The notes under the pieces were generated by a model. The model was given only the letters and a program-made list of their open reading frames with translations, had not been told where the DNA came from and did not search any database. Shown here one piece after another: positions 22,701-37,700 of a stretch of 64,000 nucleotides of DNA. The translations under genes and the position numbers were made by a program. The stretch comes from Diprion similis (Eukaryota; Arthropoda; Insecta; Hymenoptera; Diprionidae): positions 9,423,981-9,487,980 of the forward strand of contig NC_060111.1 in the NCBI RefSeq assembly GCF_021155765.1, read 5' to 3'. Position 1 is the first letter of the stretch. The number at the start of each line of letters is the position of its first letter.

Positions 22701-25700
22701 GTTTGAGATTTGTGCTCATCTTTTTACCTTTGCGTTCTTTTTCAATGAATCACCAACTTAAGTCTATTCTTGTCTCTGATCGCGGAAGGGGTGAGTTTTC
22801 TGGATAGGGGTGTAAGCAGAAAAATCAAACATGTAGTATGTGAATGTAAATTGTCGAGCAAAAAAATCCAGTGCATTCTGTGTTTTGAAAGTCGCAATTT
22901 CTTTCTTGTTATCTTCTCCGATCGTGGCAAGGGGTGAGTTTTCTGGGTAGGAGAATGAGCAGACAAATCAAACTTGTATTCCGTGAATATAAATCGTGAA
23001 GCAAAAAAATGAGGTCTCATTCGGTTTTCAAAAATCACCAATTTACGTCGGTTCTCGTCTCTGATCGTGAATGAGGTGAGTTTTTTGGGTAGAAGTCTGA
23101 GCAGAAAAATCGGCCTTGCAGCACCTTGTATCGTAAATTTCGAAGATCAACAAACAGATTAGGTTTCCATATGATAATATTTGATTTTCCGCTGATCGTC
23201 TCCTCCACCGCCGGGAGGATGGATTTTCAAGGTAAGGGAATGAGCAAAAAAATTAGAGTCATCAGATTACTTGATTTCGGCAAGAAAGGGTTGAGAAAAA
23301 AATTCATGCATAAAATGAAAAAATAGCAATATAAAAGGAATTAAATATGAAACAAAAAAAAACAGAGTCAAATAATAGATTTGTTCGAGAACCCTGTAAC
23401 TGATAGTGAGTGAACAACCATAGCCTACCATGTAGTAGATAATTATTTTTAATATAATTACCATACTGTTGTATGTGTGTCAAATTTTTTTACAAAAATA
23501 CATTCCATTTCTTGAATATGTATAGTATACATTGTATTTATGTATATATACGTCCTAAATTGAAGATCGCCTTCACTACATTCGGCGAGTATTTACGAAA
23601 ATCCATGTGTTGAAATTTGTGCATGACAATGCAGGAAATTTCGCGCTCGCTTCACATATGTAAAAAAGCATTCTTCGAAGAAAGTCGGGTAAAAAGATAT
23701 TGGTTGATGGTGTTACGTCCGACGTCCCGCCTCACGTTTCTCCCACCTTCCTCGACGCTTGTCTTTACCTACCATTCCCACACTCCATATCTTGTCATCC
23801 TATTTCCATCTTGGCTTACACCACTCGCTATCGCCCTTACCTTGCTATTTCGATCCCCCTCTACCCTGTATCCTCGCTCATTTTCTCATGCAAAAGACTT
23901 ACTCTGATTCCAACGCTCTTACCTCTTGCATTCAACTTCAACTCCCGTTCCCCAAAACCATTGTCTCAACTACTCCTCATCGACTTCACTCAATTTCTTA
24001 ATCAAAATAAAAGTTATAATCATTCTGTAATTACTGTTCTTTCCTTTCCGTTCCCTGAACGAAAACGGCGACGACTACGAACCTACAAAAATATCACCCG
24101 AACCAACATCATCGGGTGGGTACATGGACTGCCGTCCCCCTGTACCGTAACATTCTGGTGGCAGCGGTTTTGCCGTCGACCTACCCTTTGTTCAGTGCTT
24201 CGGAAAATCTACGCAAGAAAAGTATTAATACGCAAAACTTCCGATATCATATCAATAAGTGATAGCCACGTAGACAGTGTTCGCCGGCAAATCAAGTGCG
24301 TACCTGACAAATTCAGGACCCGCAACGAACTGTGCAACGAGTGGAAATATACGACGCAAGAAAAGTGTTAATACGCAAAACTCCCGATATCATATCAATA
24401 AGTGATAGCCACGTCAAGAGTGTTCGCCGGCAAATCAAGTGTGAACCTGACAAATTCAGAACCCGCAACGAACTAAATATACGGACGAAAGCCGATCTAT
24501 ACCACACATCACCTTTTGGAACCCAAAATTGTGATTAGCCCCCACCCGTTTCTGGACGCCTGCGACGCTGGAACAAGAATTTGGACCCAAGATTGGCATC
24601 ACTCAGATACCTGGAACACCAAACCGAGACTCTTCAACACGCAACGGACTTCCCCGCCTACACCCTCCTCTTGCCGACGGACGACGTGCATCACATCTTC
24701 AAGTCTCACCTGCCTTCAGCCGCCTACAACCATGCTGTACCTTGCGTTTGTATTCATCTTTGCTCTGTAAGTTTGTTGTAATCCTTAGTAATAAGTTGAT
24801 ATTTCATCCCCGTACCCATTGCCCATCTACGAAAATCGATATGGCACCAACTAATGAGACCGGTCCATCTTTTTGGTCAGTAAAAGACGTCTTACCGACG
24901 ATCCCTGCATTCGATGGCAACAACATGCCTTTTGACCAATTTGTGGAACAATTGCGCCACGTGGAAACCCTCATTAGAGCTTCAGACAAAATGACCCTTG
25001 CTAAATTTGCACAATCAAAAATTACCGGCCCCGCTTCCCAATATTTAGTAGGCATTAATTGCAACGACGTCGAAGACCTTATAACGGCCCTCAGCCGAGC
25101 ATACCGTCCAGACATCCCCGTACGTCAATTATCAATTCAATTAGATAGAATTACCCAACAACCGCGTGAGCGTGTCATCGATTACTCATGCAGAATAAGA
25201 GTAATATCAAACGAAATAAGCAAAGCTATCGAAAAAAAATACCCGCCAGACATAGCAAGCGCTTTGCTAAATGACTTAAGAAAAGACACTGCTAGAACAT
25301 TCATTAGAGGGCTTAGACCAGAATTAGAGTGGAGAATAGCTACCATCAGACCACTCCCTACCTTTGATATCGCCGTCAGCGTCGCCGAAAGCGAGGAGAC
25401 CGAGTTAAATAACCGTCAAATGCAACGCTTTGCACAATATTGTACTCCTCTTACACCTATGTATCCCCCAATTTCCGTCTCTGCCTGCCAAAACGATACC
25501 CCTCCACCTCAGGTGTCCATAACCCCCTCCCTCATCCCCCCTCTAATGTCATTGCCCACACCTGGTTACGCGCATCAGCAAGCGCCCGGTATCGAACCCA
25601 TGTCCTACGCCCAAGCGCTCGGTGCAAGCACCCTCGCACCTCCCGCAGATCGAACGAGGACCTCGCCGACTATTTGCCAATTCTGCAACCACCGAGGTCA

Positions 25701-28700
25701 CCTGATCACGGAATGCCATCGCCTGCAAAATACAAGATACTGTACCAAATGTCGCAGAATGGGCCACTTTTACAATGAGTGCAACCAACCCAGCAGAAGC
25801 GACAAACTGTACTGCGATAACTGTAAGCGCAGAGGCCACACATCAGACCAATGTAGATCTCCCCCGCGTGATAACCAAAACCATGTAAGTTCGAATCAAG
25901 ATTTAAACGGCAAGACTGCCCGCGGGGAGAACGCGCCCGCGAGCTATGCAAACAACTAGCGTTCCGATCCACAAGACACATCTTAATAACAGCTTCAGCT
26001 GATCCCCCTTTAATTTCAATCGATACCCCTGAATTGACAAAGATCTCTAAATTTATTATCGACACCGGTGCAGACGTAAACTTAATCAAAGAAAGTTGTG
26101 TTAAGCCCTTCGTACGTCGCACCACAGACGAACGTTTGACATTGACTGGTATAACGGACGAAAAGACGGAAACCATCGCAAAAACGGAAATACGCTTTAA
26201 TAACAACTCCCATACCTTTCACTTGGTCCCTGATTCATTCCCAGTCCCACATGATGGTATTTTAGGCCAACCCTTTTTACGAAAAGAGAAAGCAACTATC
26301 TCATTCAACTCAAACTCGGTAATGCTTGGATCCTCATTGCCAATCCACTTCAACAAAATCGAACAACCTCCTCCTGAAACCGCACGTGTTATCACAATAC
26401 AGGCCCGCACCGCGAAGGTCATCCCGATAATAGTTGCAAACCCAGATATCAAAGTAGGCTACCTTAAACACATTAATTTAGGCAACAATGTTCTTTGTGG
26501 TGAAGCAATAGTTCGAAATCAGAACGGCATCGCTTATTCCTACGTGTTCAATTGCAACGAATCTGTCGTAGAGATAGCATCTCCAACGGCAACCCTGGAA
26601 GAATTCGACGAACCACTGACCACAGCCATGCCCGAAATTAAGTCTACCCCGCCGAATAATTCTGACAAAAATAATGGACAAAAATCCCCCCTTCCTACCC
26701 AAACCACTTCTCATAATAATTCATTAATTCTTTCCACTAATAATCACATATCCCGTCCGCCCCATTACCCCCCCTCCAACCCCCGCCAGCTCACTGACCT
26801 CGCACATCAGCAACCTGAGCCCCGCATACCTGATAACAGTGCACCTCGTCGTGGCGCCGCAACAGTACTCTTAACTGACAGTAGGTCAGAGAGATTGGAC
26901 ACACTAAAGAATAGTGTGTGCCTCGATCATCTAAATGACACCGAAAAACAATCAACACTCGACCTGCTAACAGAATTTAACCATCTTTTCTATCTCCCGG
27001 GAGATAAATTAGGCCATACCAATCTAACCCATCACACTATCCCCACGACAGACGACACACCAATTCACACCAAACAATATCGTTTTCCAAAAATCCACAA
27101 AGATGAAATCGAATCCCAGGTCAATAAACTCCTTCGGCAAGACCTTATTAAACATTCCGCATCTCCTTATAATTCTCCGGTTTGGATCGTCCCCAAAAAA
27201 CCCGATATTGACGGTAATAAACGATGGCGCATGGTGATCGACTACCGAAAGCTCAACGAAAAAACAATCGGCGACGCCTATCCAATGCCCGACATCACCG
27301 AAATTCTTGATCAACTTGGCTCAGCTAAATATTTCTCTACATTCGACCTTGCTTCCGGCTTTCATCAAATTCCCATGCACCCCGATCACAGTGCAAAAAC
27401 TGCGTTTTCGACGCCCCGGGGTCACTATGAATTCTCCCGAATGCCCTTCGGACTAAAAAACGCCCCTGCCACGTTCCAAAGGCTCATGGATCAAGTCCTG
27501 CTAGGCTTACAAGGCAACGAGATGTTCGTATATTTGGATGACATAGTTATTTACGCTCGAAATTTACAAGAACATGAAATTAAATTCAGAAAATTGATGA
27601 AAAGACTAACTGAAGCCGGCTTGACTCTGCAGCCAGACAAATGCCAATTCCTGCGCAAAGAAGTCGTTTACCTTGGTCACCTTATCACTGAGTCAGGAGT
27701 TAGACCTGACCCCGGGAAGTTAGTAGCCGTGAAAGAATATCCCGTCCCGAAAAATCCCAAAAATGTTAAACAGTTCCTCGGTCTTTTGGGTTATTATCGC
27801 AGGTTTGTCCCAAATTTCGGAAAAATTGCAAAATGCCTCACTAACCTAACCAAGAAGGATACCCCTTTCATTTGGACATCCGAACACCAATCTGCCTTCG
27901 AAACCTTACGTGATTGTTTATGCAAAGAACCAATTCTCCAATACCCGGACTTCAGTAAGCCGTTTACGCTCACTACCGACGCGTCAAAATTCGCCATCGG
28001 TGCGGTTCTGAGTCAAGATAAGAACGGTGCCGACTTACCAGTAGCGTACGCATCCCGAGCACTCAAATCCGCTGAATTAAATTACTCGGTGCCCGATAAA
28101 GAATTTTTAGCCGCCTACTGGAGCATCAACCACTTTCGCCCCTACATCTACGGTCAGAAATTTACTTTAGTTACAGACCACGAGCCCCTCAAGTGGGTAA
28201 AAAGCGTTAAGAAGCCTAATTCTCGTTTATTACGATGGAGTCTAGAACTAGCAGAATACGATTTTGATACCAAACATAAATCGGGAAAAGCGAATGTCAA
28301 CGCCGATGCTCTATCAAGAAACACGCCGCCTGACGTCGCACAAATCCTTCCTATAGATGCAAAACGCCCTCGTCCCACGACCGAATCCTCTGACAGCAAA
28401 CCGAAAAAACGCACCAAAGAGACCCATCAGTACCCCCGACGCCCTCGACAGACCACAGACGAATCTACGAACCCGGCCCCGCTAAAATGCCCAAAAATCT
28501 CACAACCCACCTACCAAATGATATACCCCTCTGATTCTTCTGATCTCTCAGATGACGAATCCAGTGACAAAGAAACCGCAATGCCTTTTAAACCTCCCCC
28601 CTCCATCCCACCTCCGCACCCGGTTCATCCCTACCCGAAACGCCATCGAGAAACGAATTCCTCTACAAACCCTGGACCACGTAAGAGACCACACCTGAGC

Positions 28701-31700
28701 TACTTTTCGGACACTTCAACTAGCTCAGATGACCTACAAACCCCAGAGACGAACTCAGAAGTTGATGACATTAATTCGTCTACCGATTTACCTAGCTCCC
28801 CTCACATTCACAACCCCTCCTATAGCGATTTCCTTATAGAATGCGACACGTTCCCTCTTATGCGTAATAAATATATTAAAGAAATAAAAGCCGACCTACT
28901 ACAGCAAAAAGATAATTTGGCTCACTGCATATCAGCTGATTGCCAAATGTCAAAAGGAATCGCGTCACAGCTAAGAGAACGTAAATTCATAAATCGCGAA
29001 CAACTTAGAGAATTCAATCCGACTGTGACTGACGTTATTTCTACCACTCACGGACACCGAAAAATTTATAACCTAGTGACAAAGCCAAAGTACAATGACA
29101 AACCCTTACCACACGTTTTTTTTGATACCTTGGTCAACTTTAGGAAAACCTTGGAAGAAGATGGTGTAACATCTGTCTCAATCCCGTTAATAGGCTGCGG
29201 ACTCGACAAACTAGAATGGAGCACGGTGCGCAAAATGATCCACTATATTTTCAAAGATTCAAAAATGAATATCAACGTTTGTCGCCTTGACCCTCCGCTT
29301 TCAACCCCCACACACCACGACGACACAACGGTGTCCGTTGATAACGCCTCACCTGACCCCATCCCTTCCACATCTGGTAACCCCGCTCCCTCTCTTCGTC
29401 CGCCGCGTAAGAAACCGCGACCTCCGACCAAATCAGTCGCACCTCTCGCGACCCCACCTCCCCTCCCAGCCACGAACGTCGTCATGCCCGCGCCTGTAGG
29501 ACCCCCGCGTCGTGCTAAGAGACGCCCAACAGCTGTCCCCAGGCCAGCGAACTCTACTACTCACCCCCCTCCGCCTCCTCCCTCAGTACCCACACTGGCC
29601 TCTGATAACGACAACAGCTCCAACTCGCTCACGGATACCGAATACCATACATGCGCCCGACAATCCGAATCCGATATGGAAACCACACACCCTGACCATG
29701 ACATTGATCCCAATGTCGACGACGATTTGACCGATACCTCCCACGATTTCACGAACTTTGTTGACAACTTGGACGACATACCGGTAGCTGACAATGTCAA
29801 AGACACCAATGATGGTCTTTTGATGCTCAAAACCAATTATGCACACTTTATATCAACAGACTGCTCTTGGACTAAAGGCATATCATCACAACTTGCCCAC
29901 AATAATATCGTTGACCCAGATATAGTTATGACGCCCCGTCCACAGAAATTTGATATTATCGAATCCAAGCATAACAGCCGACAGATCTTTACTCTAGTAC
30001 TAAAATCAAAAGAATCAGATAAAAGCAACCTATATGATATTTTTCAACTCTTGTCTAAACTGAAAACAGTCTTGACCGATTCAATTCCGAAATCCCTCGC
30101 TTTCCCAATAACGGACGATAGTTTAGGTGGACTCGATCCTCGTGTTATCCGAAAACTCTTATCTTACCTTTTCGCAGACTTACAAATTCAAATTACGCTT
30201 TGCCGCAACACGACTGTCACCCCAGACGAATGTTTACGTAAAGAAATAATTAAAGAATGCCACGAATCATTAATTGGCGGTCATCAAGGCGTCACAAAAA
30301 TATACAACCGCATGAGACAAAAATATTTTTGGCCCCACATGAAAGAGCAAATCCAAGACTTTATAAGAACCTGTGAGAGTTGCCAAAAGAAAAAACTAGT
30401 AAGAGTAAAAACCAGGTTGCCGATGGTGATAACAGATACTCCTGCCGATGCATTCGACAAAGTAGCACTAGACATCGTTGGTCCTCTCCCCCTTACTAAA
30501 TCAAACAACAAATACCTTTTGACGATACAATGCAACTTGACGAAATTTCTGGACGCCATCCCTTTACCCGACGCCACTGCCAAAACAATAGGTGCAGCAT
30601 TCGCGAAAGAATACATTACACGTTACGGTGCCCCTCGAGCAATACTTACAGACCAAGGACAGAATTTCATGAGCACAGTCATTAAGCAACTTTGTAAACT
30701 CTTTAAAATAAAACAAATTCGAACTACAGCTTACCGCCCACAATCTAACGGATCGCTAGAACGCAGTCACCTTGTTCTCACCGAACACGTCAAGCATTAC
30801 ACGAATGCTGGTAAAGACTGGGATGAATACATCCGCTTTGCTATTTTCTGTTATAACACCGCGAAGCACGAAGGCACTAACTTCACTCCCCATCAGCTAA
30901 TTTTCGGTTCCCATGCCAGACTTCCGACAGACGCGAACCCTGCCAGCGCTTACACCCGTTCCTACGATTCGTTCCTTCTAGATTTAATTTCCAACCTATC
31001 CAGCATACGAAAAAACGCCGCGGCTAACCTCATTTTAGCAAAGCACCGTTCCAAGACGTACTACGACCGTCGTACCAATAACCAAAATTTCGAAGCAGGC
31101 CAAAAGGTCTATCTACTAAACGAAACCCGATCTAAATTTGACGACCACTATAAAGGAGCATATACGATCAAGCGCATAATTGACGATATCAATGCCGAAA
31201 TTTTCATCACCCCCCATAAGACCAAAATTGTCCATCTGAATAAACTCAAATTAGCACAGGAAGAAAGTGATTCAAATTAAACCACCTTTAGAAGTCAACA
31301 GCCGTATATTATCAATCTACCCGTAACTGCATCATATTCCGCCTCATGCCCTCGGATATCATTGCAGGTGCAACGCCCTAAACAGCGAGACAGACGAATC
31401 ATCCACTGTCATGATTAAACAACTGAAACAGAACCCGGGCATCTTCTTCGAACAACTGCAAGACTTGCGTACATATAACGAAGAATGGACCCTGCTAAAC
31501 TACGTGGACCTCCAAAACCTATTCGACCGACTTGACCAAGCATCAGATTTCTTGAATATAATAGAGAAAAAGTGCTCTTTGGCCAAGAGCAATTGCCAGA
31601 CCGGTAATCACATCCCAATGTTGGCTAACAGAATAAAAACCATGAAAACATGTCAAAAAAGAATCGAATACCTAGTCGGCCAACGCACAGGCGAATCGAC

Positions 31701-34700
31701 CCACTCTGAACTTGCAAAGCTAGCCCACCATCGCAAAACACGAGGCGCGATTAACTTCATTGGTAGCATATCAAAATCTCTATTCGGTACCCTAGACGTG
31801 GAAGACGGAGAATATTACAATCAACAAATCGACAACCTTTACAATGACAGCAGACACTTAGCATCTCTCCTTAATAAACAGACTAATATCGTCCAGTCAA
31901 CACTAGGCGCCTACAAAAAAGAACTCGACAGCATTATAAGCCACAACCACGAACGCGATACGTTACTTACGATTCTCTCGAATGATGCAGCTATCTCAAA
32001 AGCCTTAATTGCTGACAATACCTTTAGAACAACCTTACTCAACCGACTAATGGACTTGGACCGACACTTGAACGAATACGAACTTGACCTGTACAGCCTA
32101 TCAGATGCCATTCTTTTCGCACAAAAAGGTATTGTCCACCCCAAAATTCTATCACCGAACGAAATTATTTCTAGCCTTAAGCATATCCAGTCTCTTAGAC
32201 CGCAAATAGAATTCCCTATCCCACTAGACCCAAACTACGCCGAAGAATTAATTCGCATATCACAAATCGACATAGCGTATTCCAAGCCCAGGCTCCTTTA
32301 CGTTATATCCATCCCACTGCTCAACCCCGACGCCTATAACCTATACAGACTGCTCCCCGTCCCTGTAAGACAGACGTACGACTCAACAAATAACAAATTC
32401 GCCTACATTCAACCTGGCAGTGATTACGTAGCTATAGCACTTAACCGAGCGTCATACTTCCAAATTTCAGAATCTAAATTCACTGGATGCGTTTTGTCTT
32501 TGGGTAAATTCATATGCAAACTGACACAACCACTGTTTCACCCCTCAACTCACCGACTCTGTGAGGTTGGTCTTTTTCTAAACCCCTCTGAGAAAATTGC
32601 AAAAGAATGCGATATCAGACTGACCGCATTCGATGGTACCTACTGGACAGAACTATCTACATCCAATTCTTGGATTTTCTCGTCTTCCACTCTTGAAACT
32701 CTACATATTCTCTGCTCAAATGACCACACCTCCCGTGTGACGATCTCCGGCTCAGGAATTATCTCCCTGAACGACTTATGTACGGCTAGTACCTCTGAAG
32801 TAACCCTCAAAACCTCGAAACGTTCCCAATCTACCGAGACACTCTCCTACGTTCCCAAGGTTACCCTAGATTTGAGCGAAATATCCGTTAGTCTTGATTT
32901 TAATATTTCCACTGATTTATCCCTCGTCGCCATCCCCCCCTTGCGTGAACCTTCACACATTAACTCCCATGACCTTGCCATCGCTGGCGTTGCCCTGAAT
33001 GACGTGCTCAAACGCTCAGCCGATCTAAGCACACACTACCGTACTCAAAGTAACATGCATCGCCTCACCACCAGCCTCAGCTATGGCGGAATCGCCTTCG
33101 CGTCCCTCTCAGCAGTTTTCTTTTGCTACAAACTCTCATTATTTAGAAGAATCTCAAAAGTATACTCTTGCTGTAAACCCAGGCGAATACGCCACAACCT
33201 CGACTCACGTCATCCAAGACCGCAAATCCTTTCCCACCATGCCATTTCCCACCCTCACCTAGAAAATAGGTCATTCCCTAAGGACCTGTCTCCTCGCACT
33301 TCGTCGCTGCCCCGAGCTCATTCAGAAATTGAAATGATGGAAATGTCTAAGCTACGACAACACCCACGTAAACTGCCCCGCGATCAGAGCCTTGACGCTA
33401 GTTCCGACTCCCTCTTCATCTGGACAGACTAAGCCCTCTACTACATATTTATAAGAACATATCCATTGTTATGCCCAAATATCATTCAATAAAAATGTCT
33501 CAAATTACGCTATTATAATAACCGTATACACTATCTACAATTATACCCCTGACATTGTCATTTAACTTTGACTTGTATCCACAATATCTACAATCAAAAC
33601 CCTAAAAATTATAATTTAACTATAATCGTATATATACTATCTACAATTATACCCCTGACATTGTCATTTAACTTTGATTGTATCTATATTATCTACAATC
33701 AAAACCCTAAAAATTATAATTTAACTATAATCGTATATATACTATCTACAATTATACCCCTGACATTGTCATTTAACTTTGAGTGTATCTATATTATCTA
33801 CAATCAAAACCCTAAAAAATTATAATTTAATTATAATTGTACCTTTATAATATGTAACTACTACACGCTTAAATTATAAGAACATACCAACTGTTACAAA
33901 AAAAAAAAAAACATTTCTGCTAAAAATGTATACTAACCCGCTTAAACGCGCATTAACCCTAAGCGCTATACTCTTTAAGGCAAACTATATTGTAATCTTT
34001 CGTAAGTGAGTCGATACATTACCCAAAAATTCTGTTTTCCTTCGAACATTCGGCTCTGTACCCTCACCGAATGTTCTTCCCGAAGGGGGGGCGTGTTACG
34101 TCCGACGTCCCGCCTCACGTTTCTCCCACCTTCCTCGACGCTTGTCTTTACCTACCATTCCCACACTCCATATCTTGTCATCCTATTTCCATCTTGGCTT
34201 ACACCACTCGCTATCGCCCTTACCTTGCTATTTCGATCCCCCTCTACCCTGTATCCTCGCTCATTTTCTCATGCAAAAGACTTACTCTGATTCCAACGCT
34301 CTTACCTCTTGCATTCAACTTCAACTCCCGTTCCCCAAAACCATTGTCTCAACTACTCCTCATCGACTTCACTCAATTTCTTAATCAAAATAAAAGTTAT
34401 AATCATTCTGTAATTACTGTTCTTTCCTTTCCGTTCCCTGAACGAAAACGGCGACGACTACGAACCTACAAAAATATCACCCGAACCAACATCATCGGGT
34501 GGGTACATGGACTGCCGTCCCCCTGTACCGTAACAATGGAACTACAATTTGAGGAAATAATCATAGGAAAAGTCATATTCACGATTAAACAAACATTCTA
34601 GTGCACAATGAAGGCAGAAACCACTGTAAATCGTGATACCTTGCTATTCGAGGTAACTGGAGTATGTTTGTGTCGGATATCTTAAAAAACCTAAAATCTT

Positions 34701-37700
34701 ACGACAGAATTGTGTTCTGCTTATTGTACTCGAGTTATATTAAGGGTCTGATATGTACTATGCATGATGTAGATGAAATCTTGTCGTTTCAGCGTAATCA
34801 TTAACATTAAATAAATAAAAAGATATATCTTGAATATTACGTAAAGTGAACTCCCTAAAAAATCTAATGAGAATAAAGTTTGTAACCTTGAGGTGACGAT
34901 ACATCTTTAGGAGAAATCAGCATCTTCTAACTTTTTGAATCATCTAGAATTCAGTAATTCAAAATAAATCCAAATGAATTCATATTTTTTCTAAATTATC
35001 TTCAAAGTTTTTCTTAACGTGCTAAAAAACAATTTTTGTTCCAACCTTTCGTAATGTAAAGCTACTAAAACTTGATCCTCGTTAGATTTGGCAAAATTTT
35101 GACTGTTAAGCTTAACCGTCTTATTTCAATCAATGTTACCATGTTTTGCTGCTAACTCTAATTGAATATTGCAGCTAGTGTGCTAACTTTGATTGCTAGC
35201 TTCATATTGACTATCTAGAATGATTCAAAAGTATAGTATAAATTGATTTTAACTTTCAGTTTTAGCCCCGTTGGAAGTCTGTACCTCGGTTTGTAATATA
35301 ATGAGATTATTGTGTAGTCTTTTGAACTGACCTCCACAACATAGGTACTAAGCCTGCATAAAAACCTCGGATGCCATTTTGCTTATAAATATCCACACCA
35401 GTTAATATAGCTTTCGGTTTTTTCTTCAGTTTGCTTTCATCCTGTGGTTTGTATATTCCTGTAGAGAATACATTTTGAAATTATTACAACAAACTGCTAC
35501 TATGAACACACCTAGGTGTGCCAGCATATGTGGAGAGCAGTAAAATGTGAATCAAATAAAATGGATTTTAAGTCAAAATTGGATGAAAGAAATTATGCAT
35601 CTTAAGATGCTTATAAAGACGCGTTGTACACCTCGAAAACGCGGGGATGCAAAACTCTTATACCGCTCAAGCGATCAGAGTGAAACTTGGGCAGTTAATG
35701 CCTTATTTTGGCAAAAAGTGGAGCGACTTTTTACTTTTTCAAAATTTTCAAAAAAAATTTGCAGATTGTTTACCACCTACAGAAATTGGCCAAATTTTCA
35801 CAGTTGCGCTGAATGGATCGAACTATCCGGTATGATGCCACTCGGCGGTGATAAAACACACATTTTGAGCCCAGTTCCATGTGATTTGATAATGAATTGA
35901 CGAAATGGCAGCTGAACTGGTTTTCGATTATGAAGAACACCAAAATCTCATTTTGGTGACATTTGTCGGTAATTTCTTACCGACATTACACGCATATAGT
36001 ACCGGCATGCGCGTAATGTCGGTAACAAATGTCGCCAAAATGAGATTTTGGTGTACTTCGTAATCGAAAACCAGATCAGCTGCCATTTCGTCATTTCACC
36101 ATCAAATCTCATGGAACTGGACTCAAAATGTGTGTTTCATCACCGCCGAGTAGCATCTTACCGGATAGTTCGATCCTTTTCGTACAACTGTGAAAATTTG
36201 GTCAATTTCTGTGGTTGGTAACCAATCTGTAAAATTTTTTTGCAAATTTTGAAAAAGTAAAAAGACGCTCCACTTTCTGCCAAAACAAGGCATTAACTGC
36301 CCAAGTTTCACTCTGATCGCTTAAGCGGTACAGGAGTTTTGCATCCCCGCGTTTTCGAGGTGTACAACGCGTCTTTATAAGAACCTTAACTGCATCAATT
36401 ATTATATTACAGGGTGTAACATGTCACACGTGAACTATTAATTTCTGCTGTTTTCTCTGTAATATATCTATGGCATTCACGAAATCTATATATTGGTCTG
36501 TAAAATATGATATGAGACAATGCAACAGTATATTGTCGTTTCAAATGTCTATGACGTTCTGTACTGTCTAATGGGAGTATACACCCAATTCTTTGTATTT
36601 CTATGTTATTAATACGATGTAAATAAATTAGATAACTTTTCCAGATTGAAGTCGAACTTTGACAACGTCACTGGGACACGATACGATAACTTGACCAAGT
36701 CCACCTATGCAACCCCCTATGAATGTATCCAGATACCAGTTGGAAGTAGTGGGCATGTTCAAACTGGCACGGTGACCTCGTAATTCCTGCAAATTCCGCA
36801 AGCAATATCCGTAGATTCCAAAAAATACTGCATTCATAGTTCCAGAGCACAGGAGTGGAAAAAGCATCCCTCTATAGAGTCCATGAACCTGTACAGTATT
36901 ATACAATCATCTACGCCATATATGTCGATAACAGGTTCAAAATTCTATGTGAAATCTACAAATATATTCTGGATTAGAAATTTCAATTCTCTCCTGGCTA
37001 ACCATTTACTCTTATTAAAGAATATGAAGATGCCTATGAATAACGTTTGCTCTTGTTGCGAGTGATTCAACATTTTACCTCGGGTGCTCCACATTGAAAC
37101 GCATTACACAGCCTACCGAAATGAATTTGCTTTGAACTTTGTATACGGTAATAGCTACAGTATAGAACTCATTGTTAAATTCAAAATTAGGGTGAATAAA
37201 CTTGCATAATATGCTCGAATGGGAAGCTGCAACAATAGCAACGTACCTCGACTGCATATAAATGAAATTAACCAAAGAGCCGAAGCAATTAAGCGGTTCA
37301 TACCCCTTCCTTTCCAAGAATATCTAAAGCTATCTGAGAGTTCGATATTTTGGTGCTCATCATTTGCTGGTTGGTTTTAACTGTATCCATTGGATGCCCA
37401 ACCACAAGCCCGACAATTCCTAAGAAATTTATTGATACTAAACACAATCTCAGTTTGGCATGGATAACTTTGGGGCATTAACAAATGTGTAACGCTGCAT
37501 CTATTTATCTAGCAGTTGTACGAAAAAGCAGCAAGTTATTCATCCGACAACTACACAATTCATATAGCAATGTTGGATTTCATTCAAATTTATAATATCG
37601 TGAAACCTCACTTGAAGCCTAATTTATTTTAGACTTTGAGGCAGTCAGTCACTCTCCGCATTCTTACCAGTGGATTGTGTGTGTGGTTTTGGGTTTGTTA

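Follow-up and report, generated by a model that had tools for sequence, protein, structure and literature searches.

TARG1/OARD1-class macrodomain modules between RNase H and integrase in the Pol of an errantivirus-like element of the sawfly Diprion similis

The stretch of DNA analysed here, referred to as the window, comprises 64,000 nucleotides of Diprion similis (assembly GCF_021155765.1, contig NC_060111.1, positions 9,423,981 to 9,487,980). It contains a young, errantivirus-like insertion whose Pol carries two macrodomain modules. The element has the plan of an errantivirus (Metaviridae), with long terminal repeats (LTRs), gag, pol in the order protease, reverse transcriptase (RT), RNase H and integrase (IN), and env, and its features lie on the forward (+) strand. 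The pol gene is a stop-to-stop open frame of 1801 codons (25875-31280). Pfam profiles run piecewise over the frames place the protease at 26043..26300 (RVP, E 1.4e-4, above the cut-off), RT at 27192..27680 (RVT_1, split over two neighbouring matches with E 1.5e-7 and 1.2e-23) and RNase H at 27948..28259 (RT_RNaseH, E 3.1e-39). Integrase matches start just past 30213, with an H2C2 finger at 30225..30395 (Integrase_H2C2, E 1.1e-22) and the core at 30468..30740 (rve, E 3.2e-9). The original prediction, made from the sequence alone, described about 460 uninterrupted extra residues before the integrase finger, and translation of 28830-30212 gives 461 residues with zero stops within the pol frame. 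As a measure of the whole insert this is too short: about 651 residues (28260-30212) separate the RNase H match from integrase, with a further 190 residues (28260..28829, 16% proline) preceding the first module. That stretch is mostly low-confidence coil in the structural model. It is followed by module 1 (28830..29303), a 155-residue linker that is proline-rich in composition (29304..29768, 21% proline), and module 2 (29769..30206), which directly precedes the integrase. Neither the 190-residue stretch nor the linker has a Pfam match.

Both modules match the fold of the TARG1/OARD1 class, which is the nearest among macrodomains by sequence and model comparison. Module 1 matches human TARG1/OARD1 chains at E 4.7e-19, with 35% identity over 139 aligned residues (PDB 4j5r, 4j5s). 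A profile built without module 2 detects the module 2 of another copy, L009, at E 4.2e-10, and that module is 100% identical to the one in the window; a structural model of module 2 shows the same fold. The generic Pfam Macro profile matched one stretch only, at 14.5 bits against a cut-off of 22 bits, so annotation with that profile would miss both modules. Contrary to what the original prediction had implied, the two are not equivalent, since module 2 lacks the catalytic aspartate loop.

In the TARG1 chain 41 residues separate the catalytic lysine, presumably residue 84, from the catalytic aspartate, a spacing consistent with the numbers 84 and 125. The accessible parts of two reports describe TARG1 catalysis by a lysine nucleophile together with Asp125 (PMC5179494, PMC5725667). 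Module 1 has aligned equivalents of both residues and an intact IGCGLD loop. Module 2 of the window retains the lysine and has glycine in place of the aspartate, its GCGLD loop reading DDSLG (TDDSLG across IGCGLD). This division recurs in other copies, counted over fetched loci whose profile match spans both catalytic columns, with frame-broken modules excluded. Lysine and aspartate are both present in all 37 RNase H-proximal modules (20 of family A and 17 of lineages B-E), and none of the 41 IN-proximal modules combines lysine, GxG loop and aspartate. The aspartate is lost in 17 IN-proximal modules of family A, the lysine in five of lineage B, and both in eight of lineage F and two of lineage G. 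Eight pocket columns are conserved in 12 of 12 representative catalytic modules; among four module rows outside this pocket table, two columns differ in L030 and the GxG loop differs in L040. The pocket residues of module 2 are poorly conserved.

The fusion is not confined to the window copy. A search of the 269-Mb genome with module 1 gave at least 150 match rows (the best 150 of 243 candidates), in which both modules and fragments of one copy are each counted. Among the matches listed, an open frame of 1801-1802 codons surrounds module 1 at no fewer than eight family A places. Loci L009-L048 were picked by their module 1 match, so the presence of module 1 in them is by construction. Twenty further loci (L049-L068) were selected by RT, partly for absence from the module 1 list. 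Wherever RT identity was at least 73% and both RNase H and integrase were found among these, a macrodomain lay between them (10 of 10 loci, in L053 only at E 4e-4). No macrodomain was found in the three readable copies of lineages at 60-64% RT identity (L062-L064), where the gap from RNase H to integrase is 114-209 bases. As for the other RT-chosen loci, L061 was unreadable, one landmark was missing from each of L052, L054, L055 and L056, and the sequence of L060 and L066 was short. Several lineages at RT identities of 50% or less have open frames of about 1140 residues, which hint at missing modules, and others have frames of 1389-1663 residues. An explanation by chance or by a single aberrant copy is ruled out by the TARG1 match and the many copies across lineages.

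The arrangement of the modules varies between lineages. Other lineages have RT identities of 72-80% to the window and module 1 identities of 34-40%, and the modules therefore change fast. A module adjoining the integrase is present in at least one copy of each lineage A-G; none was detected in the lineage D copy L037. A macrodomain between protease and RT was not found in the window pol and occurred in one of 12 such gaps tested, as a degenerate module before RT in the lineage B copy L030. The lineage H copy L045 has two modules after integrase, in frame with it until a stop inside the second. As a separate observation, an open stretch of 679 residues separates RNase H from the single IN-proximal module in lineage F (L050:1069-3105). 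Neither this stretch nor a 228-residue stretch of lineage E has a Pfam match.

Recurrence across a clade and signs of purifying selection in relatives, which the original prediction had proposed looking for, are both seen: several lineages of this genome and elements of other insects share the fusion, and the ratio of nonsynonymous to synonymous change (dN/dS) is low for both modules in the most informative pairs. In module 1 of the lineage C pair L035/L036, which has long open frames, dN/dS is 0.07, against 0.18 in module 2, 0.27 in the linker and 0.01 in RT. The lineage E pair L042/L046 gives 0.18 for module 1 and 0.13 for module 2. Module 1 comparisons with L040 give 0.12 and 0.31, L042/L044 gives 0.34, and lineage B gives 0.23-0.45. 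Both modules are probably constrained, judging from these ratios, module 1 less firmly within family A, and the linker is fast-evolving. Separately, the family A copies L026 and L028 differ from the window with a dS of 0.26 in module 1 and of 0.04-0.09 in linker, module 2 and integrase, a pattern which suggests that the catalytic module may have been exchanged through recombination.

OARD1-like modules are also found in retroelements of other sawflies, aphids, a thrips and a glow-worm, at three pol positions. A first protein search, in which the best 7986 candidates were scored, gave at least 19 proteins (nine with RT, seven DNA ligase fusions and three others). A second gave 16 (thirteen with RT, two with a gag domain and one virga-like replicase), and P0131 and P0136 are common to both lists. 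The module follows RNase H in the sawfly elements, in the aphid Sipha flava, in Lampyris noctiluca errantivirus 1 (LnoErV1), in P0151 and in P0154. It precedes RT in Aphis elements and their relatives and in P0138/P0139, and it follows integrase in P0137 and in Frankliniella fusca P0152. No integrase was detected in P0125 and P0154. In IMG/VR, a scan turned up module 1 relatives at 12 loci, with 34-37% identity.

Some proteins met in these searches are of interest in their own right. Seven DNA ligase-domain proteins carry an OARD1 macrodomain (P0126-P0130, P0132, P0135). One comes from Tigriopus californicus, five of the seven have zf-PARP (PF00645), and lysine and aspartate are retained in the three checked (P0126, P0128, P0130). 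These proteins, which we take to resemble DNA ligase III, represent an apparent cellular pairing of a ligase with a putative de-ADP-ribosylase. The Athalia rosae 'OARD1-like' protein P0002 groups with retroviral catalytic modules in the module tree, and the Frankliniella fusca 'OARD1' P0152 is a polyprotein in which RT and integrase stand together with a weak OTU-like match. The two proteins appear to be misnamed, and some 'OARD1' gene models, such as these two, may belong to retroelements. The replicase of Ips virga-like virus 1 (P0153) has an OARD1-like macrodomain that retains lysine and aspartate; in a tree of 69 rows its partner is the glow-worm errantivirus module (96/73), a pairing absent from one of 38 rows.

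In an RT tree of 19 rows, the elements studied here belong to a supported clade (100/98) that also takes in elements of Athalia rosae and Neodiprion virginianus and two unnamed elements. Their grouping with Lampyris errantivirus 1 has a support of 87/88, not starred, in a tree without classical members such as gypsy. The module tree of 69 rows was built after removal of nine rows as incomplete or near-duplicate (four M1, four M2 and L048), and E_M2_L042 was dropped as too short. It took in 19 of the 120 short macrodomain proteins P0002-P0121; the long matches P0127, P0129, P0132, P0135, P0142, P0143 and P0144, together with P0141, stand outside it. Eleven rows bear the IN-proximal label, and ten of them group together (99/95), with a long-branch warning on the join of lineages C and F within that group. 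The remaining row, P0124_M2, represents a middle module and is placed elsewhere. The catalytic modules from family A, from lineage B and from the other sawfly elements join the IN-proximal group (96/86). Those of lineages D and E group with P0124_M2 and with two lineage H modules of C-terminal position (98/93), next to the OARD1 of the host and of a beetle (91/83). The lineage C catalytic module pairs with the Sipha module (86/90), not with other catalytic modules. The host has two tandem, two-exon OARD1 copies at C2:13.51 Mb, and the retroviral modules are uninterrupted. Approximately unbiased (AU) tests were run on 38 rows, after removing 31 of the 69 as long, near-duplicate or IN-proximal. 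A single origin of all catalytic modules was rejected (p-AU 0.047), as was holding the D/E/H modules with those of A and B, lineage C left out (p-AU 0.0098), the groups in both cases having been named after the tree was seen. The tree makes at least two captures likely, the later one from an insect OARD1 and inserted upstream of the old module; this stays short of proof, because the groups were named post hoc and the deep forks are weakly supported.

The remaining features of the element are as follows. The 5' LTR (23711..24152, 442 bp, TG...CA) is identical to the 3' LTR (34094..34535), the exact match extending one base upstream, and ATGG stands on both flanks (23707-23710 and 34536-34539). 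An open frame of 474 residues, stop to stop (24535..25959), is the putative gag on account of its position and a weak, below-cut-off match to the zinc-knuckle zf-CCHC; there is no ATG within its first 60 codons. The heptamer TTTAAAC (25902..25908) lies in the gag/pol overlap, its first base falling on codon position three of gag. This is the phase needed for a -1 frameshift from gag to pol, in which the heptamer may function. The env frame is of the baculovirus F type (31327..33432, Baculo_F, E 2.9e-55), stop to stop, with its first ATG at 31411. Repeats are present in and near the element. The leader between 5' LTR and gag contains a 121-base direct repeat, 93% alike (24211-24474); a tandem array of six units, each about 53 bases long and not all of one type, lies between env and the 3' LTR (33543-33860); and an inverted repeat with 365-base arms, 91% complementary and 58 bases apart, lies downstream of the element (35602-36389).

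How does this layout compare with known systems? Among proteins, TARG1/OARD1/C6orf130 shares the fold, the pocket motifs and, with module 1, the catalytic lysine and aspartate. The window copy differs in lying within a retroviral Pol, uninterrupted and duplicated, with a module 2 that lacks the aspartate loop. Errantiviruses (Metaviridae) share the LTR-gag-pol-env plan with the window element, which has an F-type env. The dUTPase of non-primate lentiviruses lies between RNase H and integrase; it is likewise a captured enzyme at the same Pol junction, unrelated in fold and in chemistry. RNA viruses are known to use macrodomains against host ADP-ribosylation. Those of alphavirus nsP3 and insect virga-like viruses also sit in a replication polyprotein and are distant fold matches; both differ in belonging to RNA viruses, and the alphavirus domains have an identity to the window modules far below that of TARG1. 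A review, citing Basta et al. 2009, describes additional open reading frames (ORFs) for macro-domain proteins in some fish epsilon-like retroviruses (PMC4977317). Such viruses resemble the window element as retroviruses carrying a macrodomain and differ, by that review's description, in having it as additional ORFs. A named errantivirus, LnoErV1 (PMC7093385), whose RT grouping with the window element is tentative, has an OARD1-like module after RNase H at residues 473-610; the window element differs in having two modules and a proline-rich linker, one module catalytic-looking and one degenerate. The glow-worm paper describes the largest ORF as RT/RNase H plus integrase by HHpred, and no word beginning 'macro' occurs in its main text (PMC7093385). 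In PMC12992720 'macro' occurs zero times. Among the papers listed by searches of open-licence literature, judged mostly by title and start of abstract, none was on a macrodomain inside retroviral Pol. The original prediction knew of no described retroelement with this layout; given the fish viruses, a macrodomain in a retrovirus is not wholly without precedent, and the Pol-internal, catalytic-looking copy is a new variant.

We favour, with moderate confidence, the reading that an errantivirus Pol captured a host TARG1/OARD1 domain as module 1, likely a mono-ADP-ribose hydrolase, and that module 2 is an older, non-catalytic domain fused to integrase. The analysis shows the macrodomain folds (from sequence and from models), the catalytic residues, a layout that is conserved, signs of selection and recurrence. 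Host ADP-ribosyltransferases would attach single ADP-ribose groups to Gag/Pol, to host proteins close to the incoming complex or to viral DNA ends. Module 1, presumably delivered within Pol and acting by the chemistry of TARG1, would strip these groups and so protect reverse transcription or integration, and conservation and recurrence point to a benefit for the element. Module 2, its aspartate loop lost, most likely serves as a folded extension at the amino end of integrase, for docking, spacing or weak ligand binding.

Several points weigh against this reading. The structural models were built on macrodomain alignments, which biases them towards that fold. Among the 37 modules next to RNase H, three (L032, L040, L041) show changes in the GxG loop, and nine of the 41 IN-proximal modules (lineages C, D and E) hold the lysine and aspartate letters with a changed loop, so loss of activity is unproven for these nine. 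Lineages F and G yielded an IN-proximal module and no other, and the catalytic module is therefore dispensable in some lineages. For module 1, dN/dS reaches 0.46 (a lineage D pair) and ranges from 0.21 to 1.29, on few changes, in family A; for module 2 it is 0.75 in L029/L047 and 0.19-0.53 in lineage F. Both the predicted activity and the host conflict of the element are what we infer from sequence.

An alternative that we hold possible yet unlikely is action on nucleic acid, in which module 1 would de-ADP-ribosylate phosphate ends of viral DNA or RNA, keeping them fit for strand transfer and for the repair of gaps, and module 2 would position integrase on those ends, placement next to integrase being the point. 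The site between RNase H and integrase fits this, as do the separate DNA ligase-OARD1-like fusions, e.g., of Tigriopus, and human TARG1 is reported to remove mono-ADP-ribose in vitro from DNA ends phosphorylated at 5' and 3' (PMC5725667). Closeness to integrase is nevertheless not required, because aphid, thrips and some unnamed elements carry the domain before RT or after integrase. It is improbable that the modules chiefly read or tether ADP-ribose and thereby direct the integration complex towards DNA breaks with ADP-ribosylated chromatin, with hydrolysis secondary: a module does adjoin the integrase finger in at least one copy of each lineage A-G, but the pocket of module 2 is poorly kept while module 1 keeps the catalytic set, and copy L037 has no detected IN-proximal module. 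Passive filler, a captured host domain tolerated without benefit at a permissive Pol site, is disfavoured as very improbable, for the junction's record of accessory domains such as the lentiviral dUTPase, the fast linker, pairs with dN/dS near 1 and the lack of module 1 in lineages F and G are set against the low ratios in L035/L036 and L042/L046 (0.07-0.18), the invariant lysine and aspartate of the RNase H-proximal modules and the recurrence in other elements.

Captures in the elements of several insects hint at a recurring conflict with the host. That the domain occurs in elements of sawflies, aphids, a thrips and a glow-worm, and at three positions in Pol, suggests a limit set by ADP-ribosylation on the reverse-transcribing elements of insects. 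Tentatively, insect errantiviruses may stand in a lasting conflict with host ADP-ribosylation, in which the OARD1 gene of the host itself has repeatedly been captured into Pol, the newest copy being catalytic beside RNase H and the oldest a non-catalytic extension of integrase. If true, this would mean that an unrecognised, ADP-ribose-based restriction acts on reverse-transcribing elements in insects.
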